Shown here one piece after another: positions 7,207 through 64,000 of a DNA stretch of 64,000 bases (position 1 is the stretch's first letter; each line of letters opens with the position of its first letter). The DNA comes from Quadrisphaera sp. INWT6 (lineage in GTDB: Bacteria; Actinomycetota; Actinomycetes; Actinomycetales; Quadrisphaeraceae). The position numbers and the translations under genes are program-made. Below the pieces are notes generated by a model. That model did not search any database. It was not told the DNA's origin and saw nothing but the letters and a program-made list of their open reading frames with translations. The stretch is from NCBI RefSeq assembly GCF_015390235.1, contig NZ_VUOH01000005.1, positions 248,001 to 312,000 on the forward strand. Reading direction: 5' to 3'.

Positions 7207-7268
7207 GCAGGTCTTGGCGATCGGTGGCCTCCCCGGCCGCCCTCGACCCACCGATCGCCAAGACCTGC
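7207..7268. repeat. 21-bp inverted repeat, 20-bp spacer
   Basis: The arms 7207-7227 and 7248-7268 are perfectly complementary. The right arm is identical, 21 of 21, to the right arm of the element at 62032-62093 some 55 kb away, so this is a dispersed family rather than a simple terminator. Confidence 0.75.
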
Positions 7269-40887: not shown

Positions 40888-41033
40888 GCAGCCGAGCGCC
40901 TGCTTGCGGTTCCTGCCCCCTCACGAACCGCAGCCGAGCGCCTGCTTGCGGTTCCTGCCCCCTCACGAACCGCAGCCGAGCGCCTGCTTGCGGTTCCTGC
41001 CCCCTCACGAACCGCAGCCGAGCGCTCGGCTGC
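40888..41033. repeat. 42-bp tandem repeat (3 copies) ending in a 20-bp palindrome
   Basis: Three exact 42-base units run 40888-40929, 40930-40971 and 40972-41013. Each can fold a GCGGTTC/GAACCGC hairpin across the unit boundary. A partial fourth copy becomes a perfect 20-base palindrome at 41014-41033, 10 bases beyond the stop of the dehydrogenase gene. The palindrome probably terminates that gene; the repeated hairpins are unexplained. Confidence 0.85.
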
Positions 41034-41043
41034 GACCTGACGG

Positions 41044-43672: not shown

Positions 43673-43717
43673 GGTGGCCAGCGCCCATGATCACGATGAT
43701 CATGGGCGCTGGCCACC
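43673..43717. repeat. 21-bp perfect hairpin element (TGATCATG family)
   Basis: Arms 43673-43693 and 43697-43717 are perfectly complementary with a three-base loop. The same arm sequence recurs as an inverted repeat at 48241-48296. It lies 16 bases past the binding-protein stop and could terminate or stabilise that message. Confidence 0.85.
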
Positions 43718-48211: not shown

Positions 48212-48240
48212 GCTCTCGTGCTCCTCACATCAGAGACGGA

Positions 48241-48296
48241 GGTGGCCAGCGCCCATGATCACGACCAGTCGTCGGTGATCATGGGCGCTGGCCACC
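48241..48296. repeat. 22-bp inverted repeat (TGATCATG family)
   Basis: Arms 48241-48262 and 48275-48296 are perfectly complementary with a 12-base spacer. The arm is the same sequence as in the hairpin at 43673-43717, with a longer spacer. It lies between iolA and iolG and could modulate read-through. Confidence 0.85.
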
Positions 48297-48319
48297 TCAC
48301 GGGGTCAGTACCGGTCGGG

Positions 48320-61914: not shown

Positions 61915-62031
61915 CGGTGACACCCGCGCCACCAGAGCCGCTCCAGCCGCTCCAGCCGCGACGATCAAGGGCCTGAGCGCCACAACGGCACCTCGGGCAC
62001 CCACCACGGGGCCGGCCGCACCAGCGGGCGT

Positions 62032-62093
62032 GCAGATCTCGGCGATCGACGGGCTCCTGTCGCCTCGACGGCCCACCGATCGCCAAGACCTGC
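62032..62093. repeat. Inverted-repeat element related to 7207-7268
   Basis: The right arm 62073-62093 is identical to 7248-7268. The left arm 62032-62052 has a few changes, so the inverted repeat is imperfect. The spacer is 20 bases, as in the first copy. It lies between two convergent genes. Confidence 0.7.
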
Positions 62094-62541: not shown

Positions 62542-63642
62542 TCAGCGCAGCGGGACGTTGAAGCGGGTGACCACCTGCACCGGTGCCGCCCAGGAGCGCG
62601 CTGGGCCGGGGAGCGCCCCGCGGGCCTGCAGCAGCACGCGGGCGGCGCGCCGCAGGTGGGTGCGCAGGTCGTGGTGCAGCACGGCGGAGACACGGCCGGC
62701 GCGCAGGAGCGCGAGGTGCTCGGCGGCCAGGTCGTGCACGACGACGACGCGGGGGTGCTGCCCGGCGGCGGCCAGCGAGTCGAGCACGCGCGCCGCTCCC
62801 CCGGCGCCGGCGTACATCGCGTAGACCGCCGCGACGGCAGGGCCCCCTGCGCTGGCGAGCACCCAGCGCACCCCGTCGACCACGACCCCGGGCCGCTGCT
62901 CGTCGTCGACCACCTCGATGACCTCGCGCGGCCCGAGCACCTCGGTGAACCCCTCGGCGCGCTCGTCCTCGCCGAGGTCAGCCCCACCGCTGCGGACCAC
63001 CAGCACCCGAGCGCGGTGACCATGCAGAAGACCCCCGCGCAGCGACCCGGCGTGCGGGTCTTCTGCATGATCGCGGGGAGGGGCCGCGCCGAGCCACTGG
63101 TCCACCAGGTGCGCCGCGGTGCGACCCGCCCCGCGGTTGTCGAGCCCCGTGTAGGCGACCCGCGCGGACCCCGGCAGGTCGGTGACCAGCGTGACCACCG
63201 GCACGCCCGCTGCGGCGAGCTCGGCGACCGCCGCCACCACGTCGGGGTGCTGCGGCGCCTTGAGGACCACGCCGTCGCTGCGGGAGCGCACCGCCTTGCG
63301 CAGCGCTGCGACGACGGGGGCCGGCCCCGCGCCGTCCTGCCCCTCGAGCAGGTGGAACCGGGCGCGGACGACGGCGGGCCGCAGCCCCGGCAGCTCGGCC
63401 TCCAGCGCCGCGCGGACCTCCACGGAGAAGCGCAGCGGCGCCTGGACGACGACGTCGAGGGTCCAGGTGCGGCCCCCGAGCTGCAGCTGGTCGGCCTGGC
63501 GCTGCAGGTCGGCGATGGCCCGCTCCACCTGGCGGGCGGTGGAGGGCCGCACGCCCTCGCGGCCGTGCAGGGCGCGGTCGACCGTGGCCTCGGACAGGCC
63601 CGCCTGGGCCGCGATCTCGCGGACGCGGAAGGGGTGGCGCAC
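62542..63642 (-). CDS. LacI family regulator with an in-frame palindromic insertion
   Basis: This is a LacI-type regulator of 366 residues. HPFRVREIAAQAGLSEATVD and RALHGREGVRPSTARQVERA form the DNA-binding domain of the subgroup with a VDR motif. The ligand domain starts WTLDVVVQAPLRFSVEVRAA. Between VDQWLG and RVLVVRSGGADLGEDERAEG lies an extra stretch of about 25 residues, including DHAEDPHAGSLRGG, encoded by a near-palindrome at 63021-63069. Without it the protein would be of usual length. GTG 63642 is chosen from the family start. It is divergent from the gene beginning at 63781, its likely target. Confidence 0.85.
   Translation of the reverse strand: MRHPFRVREIAAQAGLSEATVDRALHGREGVRPSTARQVERAIADLQRQADQLQLGGRTWTLDVVVQAPLRFSVEVRAALEAELPGLRPAVVRARFHLLEGQDGAGPAPVVAALRKAVRSRSDGVVLKAPQHPDVVAAVAELAAAGVPVVTLVTDLPGSARVAYTGLDNRGAGRTAAHLVDQWLGAAPPRDHAEDPHAGSLRGGLLHGHRARVLVVRSGGADLGEDERAEGFTEVLGPREVIEVVDDEQRPGVVVDGVRWVLASAGGPAVAAVYAMYAGAGGAARVLDSLAAAGQHPRVVVVHDLAAEHLALLRAGRVSAVLHHDLRTHLRRAARVLLQARGALPGPARSWAAPVQVVTRFNVPLR
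63021..63069. repeat. Palindromic element inside a coding sequence
   Basis: Perfect 14-base outer arms (63021-63034 and 63056-63069), with partly paired inner sequence, form a hairpin within the LacI-type gene. The outer flank reads CATGATCGCG, echoing the CATGATCA core of the intergenic elements. The reading frame stays open through it. Confidence 0.7.
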
Positions 63643-63780
63643 GGGTCCAGCATGGAGGAGCTGCTGAGGGGTTTCTGAGGGGTTCAGGGCCTCCGCCGCG
63701 ACCGGCGCGCACCTAGCGTCGTCGTCACGGCGAACCCTCCTCACCCCGCCACCGCTCCTCGACGCTGAGAGGCACCACGA

Positions 63781-64000
63781 TGACCGCCACCCCGACCCGG
63801 CCCGCCACCACGCCGGCGCGCACCAGCGCACCCACCGGCTGGTACTCCCCCGCCGACTGCTCCCTGGACGACTTCCGCGCCCTGGTCGAGGGCGGCCTGG
63901 CGTCCACCGACCTGGCCGACTACCCGTGCGCCGACTCCCTCGAGCAGGGCGTGCTCGTCTACGGCGCGCGGCTGCGCGAGCACACCACCACGCCGGAGGG
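63781..64000 (+). CDS. Partial gene, possible phytanoyl-CoA dioxygenase family
   Basis: An open frame starts at ATG 63781 with GAGAGG upstream and runs off the window end, so only the first 73 residues are seen. After a Thr/Pro-rich leader it reads TGWYSPADCSLDDFRALVEG and then ADYPCADSLEQGVLVYGARL, which resembles the N-terminus of bacterial phytanoyl-CoA dioxygenase (iron/2-oxoglutarate) proteins found next to LacI regulators. The metal-binding motifs would be beyond the window, so the family is a tentative call. It is divergent from the LacI gene, which probably regulates it. Confidence 0.5.

Follow-up and report, generated by a model that had tools for sequence, protein, structure and literature searches.

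An in-frame coding copy of a dispersed, terminator-like palindrome in a LacI-type regulator gene of Quadrisphaera

The window analyzed here is a 64,000-nt stretch of the genome of Quadrisphaera sp. INWT6 (contig NZ_VUOH01000005.1, positions 248,001 to 312,000). Close to its end lie a gene for a LacI-type transcriptional regulator, which contains a palindromic element, and the beginning of a divergently oriented neighbor. The features are as follows:

62542..63642, minus strand: LacI-type transcriptional regulator, host of the element (GTG start, 366 aa, stop codon at 62542-62544)
63015..63075, no strand assigned: 61-nt palindromic element, a family member lying in frame within the regulator gene and encoding R190-H209 on the minus strand
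63018..63040, no strand assigned: left arm of the hairpin, from a repeat search
63050..63072, no strand assigned: right arm of the hairpin, from a repeat search
63780..64000, plus strand: start of the divergent neighbor gene (about 405 aa), which runs off the window and adjoins the regulator gene both with and without the insert

The reading frame of the regulator (62542-63642, minus strand) is uninterrupted despite the hairpin inside it. Pfam identified Peripla_BP_4 (4.8e-22) and LacI HTH (2.1e-6) domains in the protein, and the combination of an N-terminal LacI HTH with a periplasmic-binding-like ligand domain that defines the LacI type was found with Pfam, AlphaFold2 and Foldseek. The AlphaFold2 model, for which eight sequences served as input, reached a mean pLDDT of 80.5, and its Foldseek neighbors were sugar-binding proteins and LacI regulators. 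Residues 191-209 of the model, located between a helix (169-184) and a strand (212-218), have pLDDT values <50, and the loop encoded by the insert is predicted to be disordered.

A preliminary description of this DNA reported a palindrome lying in frame inside a LacI-family gene, and this is confirmed. The two arms of the hairpin (23 nt each, 87% complementary) are spaced 9 nt apart, and the coding-strand RNA of the element has a folding energy of -41 kcal/mol compared to -22.2 ± 3.1 kcal/mol in 200 dinucleotide shuffles (z = -6.1). The same description was right about an extra in-frame stretch but overestimated its coding length and underestimated the DNA unit: the excess over orthologues at the same place is 20 residues (R190-H209) rather than about 25, and the unit is 61 nt rather than 49 nt. 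When translated in the frame of the insert, the family consensus gives GDHAEDPHPGARGAGLLHDH, which is almost identical to the inserted residues, so the insert represents the element translated. On either strand, the consensus can be read through in two frames; the remaining frame meets a TGA at each end, since TGATCA contains this stop codon in both orientations. With an element 61 nt long, the frame is preserved only if the junctions lose one base or gain two, and these junctions, along with any target duplication, can be placed only approximately because loop length also varies among the orthologues without the element.

The hairpin is one copy of a dispersed family with the consensus GGTGATCATGCAGAAGACCCGCACC..loop..GGTGCGGGTCTTCTGCATGATCACC, usually 61 nt in length. 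We built a covariance model from 29 copies, including 28 units of 61 nt and one of 62 nt; their consensus starts with GGTGATC, ends with GATCACC and has a 28-bp stem. Covariation between paired positions was higher than in shuffles (score of 0.151 versus 0.096), and none of 500 shuffles reached the observed score. Exact matches to the arm numbered 12 in the genome, compared to 0 for a reversed-pattern control, and a BLAST search with the full unit gave 20 matches distributed over both strands. As the preliminary description had anticipated, nucleotide search thus recovered other copies in the genome, a dozen or so in number, and each of the genus genomes contains about as many clear copies. 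Near-identical arms of about 19 nt are shared by copies at unrelated loci and in the coding region.

We compared six genomes of the genus, namely that of the window (G000) and G001, G002, G003, G004 and G005. Copies were counted with pattern and covariance-model searches, and for weak matches the counts are lower bounds. The covariance model found the family in all six genus genomes; outside the genus it gave only weak hits, which among the matches listed came from 5 of the 295 other genomes searched in the phylum. The arm itself was found in this genus alone among 59 related genomes. Rfam, applied to the whole window, gave no match at the gathering threshold.

To place the copies relative to genes, we used gene calls from a simple codon-usage caller written for this analysis, which are not curated annotation. 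The loci with checked flanks held 56 strong copies, 54 of them intergenic, and both of the intragenic ones were located in the LacI-type regulator (G000 and G004); the copy in the regulator of G005 was read separately. Intergenic copies were found between convergent (n = 32), tandem (n = 21) and divergent (n = 1) genes, compared to 11, 44 and 21 background gene pairs, respectively (Fisher 1.4e-7). In 53 cases a neighboring gene ends towards the copy; in 51 of these the copy begins within 39 nt of the stop codon, and 11 copies overlap it. The base of the stem reads UCUUCUGCAUGAUC, which is not a clean U-run. Behind asd, where the element is present in all six species, 8 base pairs showed compensatory changes on both sides, and the number of both-sided cells was 14 compared to 6.1 in shuffles and 1-2 when the partner was slid by one to three columns. 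Outgroup genera of the taxonomic family have unrelated hairpins behind asd. Judged by position and covariation, the palindrome looks like a bidirectional, terminator-like hairpin of gene 3' ends, and its intergenic copies would most likely act in the manner of intrinsic terminators or protect mRNA 3' ends in a REP-like way.

As at the asd slot, all six species have the element next to an MFS-type gene and next to one for an aldehyde dehydrogenase, and most copies with an examinable orthologous slot are common to other species. Other slots are patchy. At one of these (L125, G000:C1:508612; orthologues L214, L215 and L216), the family is present in G000, G005 and G001, and a differently sequenced hairpin (GACGATCAAGGA.. 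type) lies in G004, G002 and G003, as if terminators had been exchanged. At two further slots (L124), a family copy is present in G000, G005 and G004, and the remaining species have other sequence that is partly hairpin-forming by eye. Based on these shared and patchy slots, the family appears to be old and mostly vertically inherited, while copies were gained, lost or replaced on the time scale of species.

In whole-genome searches, orthologues of the regulator were found in four other species of the genus, with none found in G003. The 61-nt element is present in the regulator of three species (G000, G005 and G004), whereas the genes of G001 and G002, together with a second G002 copy (a paralogue), are 57-66 nt shorter and cleanly without it. 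Two more distant homologues (G057 and G058) are also without the insert. Because the same divergent 405-aa neighbor faces every filled or empty regulator gene of the genus, these genes represent the same locus or its paralogue. Public records that match in these genes include L063 (Actinomycetales bacterium M60), which corresponds to G005, and L064/L065 (listed as Streptomyces sp. NP160), which correspond to G002. Remnants of the element in the empty orthologues were not above the level of shuffles, of which fractions of 0.12, 0.41 and 0.65 scored as high.

In a tree built from asd and lysC, which are adjacent genes, and rooted on five other genomes of the taxonomic family as outgroup, the genus splits with strong support into (G000, G005) and (G004, G001, G002, G003), which places the coding copy on both sides of the genus root. 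With its three carrier species spanning the deepest split of the genus, the insert is therefore old and not strain-specific. The preliminary description had named an insert confined to this strain or species, in an alignment with related homologues, as support for its reading; the absence from close orthologues is borne out, but the confinement is not. The insert is not common to all close homologues and the palindrome does have other copies in the genome, the two points on which that description had staked its reading. For the history of the coding copy, one gain followed by losses and two separate gains are both defensible. That G004 acquired its regulator horizontally from the G000 lineage is disfavored, since the G004 gene is nearer to those of G001 and G002 (12-15% DNA difference) than to those of G000 and G005 (18%).

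The explanation that we consider likely is that one copy of a genus-specific family of 3'-end hairpins entered the regulator gene and now encodes a tolerated loop. Behind stop codons, and most often where two genes converge, members of the family would serve as 3'-end hairpins in both directions. Either once, at an early stage of the genus, or on two occasions, a copy would have entered the regulator gene in a stop-free frame and lengthened it by a multiple of three bases. We infer this past entry from the presence, absence and frame of the insert, which are directly observed. The inserted copy now encodes a loop of 20 residues, placed in the ligand-binding domain after a helix and before a strand. 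The regulator seems to tolerate this loop, which is probably without a separate function. Between species, the DNA of the insert has diverged by 31-36% compared to 9-18% for the rest of the gene, as would a tolerated and weakly constrained loop. Ectopic or template-switch copying of hairpins and a transposase that has since been lost are equally plausible ways in which the family may have spread.

Alternatively, the hairpin may be functional in the regulator mRNA, as an intragenic terminator or attenuator that lowers expression when translation lags and is kept by selection. In its favor, the outer stem of the coding copy retains 19, 19 and 21 of 21 pairs in the three species, near the intergenic mean of 19.7, the coding copies fold at -41 to -50 kcal/mol, and G005 has one double compensatory change together with several changes that preserve pairing as G-U. 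However, the inner stem has decayed in G000, two species manage without the hairpin, and the changes between G000 and G005 comprise 1 both-sided, 3 one-sided and 3 broken pairs, whereas those at the asd slot are mostly both-sided. Between species, changes in the coding copy thus disrupt pairs roughly as often as they preserve them, selection for RNA structure within the gene is at most putative, and we regard this alternative as unlikely.

Somewhat less likely again is a currently mobile miniature element of the REP or MITE type, moved by a transposase and recently inserted into the gene. Its appeal lies in the near-identical arms at unrelated loci, in presence and absence that differ between species at orthologous slots and in the lineage-limited expansion of another palindrome family in the same genome. 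Yet the Y1_Tnp (RAYT) transposase was absent from all six genus genomes, with control genomes positive in the same search (PF01797), which was limited to that transposase family; a RAYT-driven REP is rejected on this basis. Inspection by eye revealed no consistent target-site duplication in the flanks of the family copies. A 6-bp direct repeat, ACCACA, surrounds the coding copy of G004 (L137 / L035), is missing in G000 and G005 and may be due to chance. In addition, the asd, MFS-type and aldehyde dehydrogenase slots are filled throughout the genus, most examinable slots are shared between species and the coding copy is common to both sides of the deepest split, all of which argue against an element that is mobile at present; the mobility suggested in the preliminary description is not supported.

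We consider it very improbable that the terminator hairpin is a copying element that entered the same regulator loop twice independently and today both codes for protein and attenuates transcription of the regulator from within the gene. Least credible is that the copies are not related by copying, with terminators that converged through function and a coding copy due to chance or slippage: the link to gene ends and the compensatory conservation are what a constrained functional site would show, but the near-identical arms and near-constant length recur at unrelated loci and in a coding region, and other slots use quite different hairpins.

The preferred explanation, a 3'-end hairpin turned into coding sequence, can be compared to known systems. 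Repetitive extragenic palindromes (REPs) are found between convergent and unidirectional genes, where the stop codon of a flanking gene can come from the REP itself, and certain species also have in-frame REPs that encode 20-30 residues inside genes; the REP superfamilies have a GTAG or CGTC terminal tetranucleotide and a stem of 5-13 bp, and the text of this source does not mention Actinobacteria, Streptomyces or Mycobacterium (PMC3733652). Like REPs, the present family is dispersed and multicopy, is located mainly 3' of genes in convergent and unidirectional gaps, can provide the flanking gene with its stop codon and has one in-frame copy. In contrast to REPs, it has a stem of 28 bp, lacks a GTAG or CGTC tail (consensus GGTGATC...GATCACC), occurs as single units of near-fixed length and belongs to an actinobacterial genus; unlike GTAG-type REPs, it has no RAYT transposase in the six genomes.

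Rickettsia palindromic elements (RPEs) are palindromic repeats of 105-146 bp that lie between genes and also within protein genes, to which they are joined in frame; 19 reading frames were reported to carry one, apparently tolerated there (PMC2229807). The present palindrome resembles them in being both intergenic and in frame in a protein gene, but differs in its length of 61 nt, in the single gene affected and in the strong placement of all other copies at 3' ends. It was accordingly in behavior, and not in membership, that the element matched the Rickettsia counterpart proposed in the preliminary description. Bidirectional intrinsic terminators share with this family a location directly behind stop codons, mostly between convergent genes, as well as covariation and a GC-rich stem with a base that is purine-rich 5' and pyrimidine-rich 3'; unlike them, the family is highly similar at unrelated loci, has one copy in coding sequence and lacks a clean U-tract. 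In the literature on actinobacterial REP or bidirectional-terminator repeats, we found nothing direct. We file the family as a palindrome of actinobacteria that is both REP-like and terminator-like and of which one copy is coding and in frame.

This extends a phenomenon of the Rickettsia/REP type, in which a dispersed palindrome is turned into protein, to a genus of actinobacteria that has no detectable RAYT transposase. With their filled, empty and substituted slots, the six related genomes can be used to study how terminator hairpins spread and displace one another, and also how a coding sequence survives the arrival of a hairpin.

The window contains further palindromes. The preliminary description had linked the regulator hairpin to the other TGATCATG palindromes of the window, but only an octamer is shared and other matches of the family model in the window have E-values of 0.0012 or worse. 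These palindromes were rejected as members, as they represent different families without a meaningful E-value from the model.

A second palindrome family, with the core TTGGCGATCGGTGG, is located at 7207-7268 and about 62031-62087. Its exact matches number 14 in this genome, 4 in G005, 1 in G003 and 0 in the remaining three of the genus, and this expansion limited to a lineage makes it a better candidate for recent spread. A third family, GGTGGCCAGCGCCCATGATCA, has perfect arms of 21-24 nt at 43673-43717 and 48239-48298, with 15 exact matches in G000, 12 in G003 and few or none in other species. At 40971-41034 and just after, there is a tandem-like repeat with inverted CGCAGCCGAGCGCCTGCTTGCGGTTC copies, and at 1965-1997 an ordinary GC-rich, terminator-like hairpin, AGAAGGCCCCCGCGCTCGCAGCGCGGGGGCCTTC, which is a weak match of the family model.
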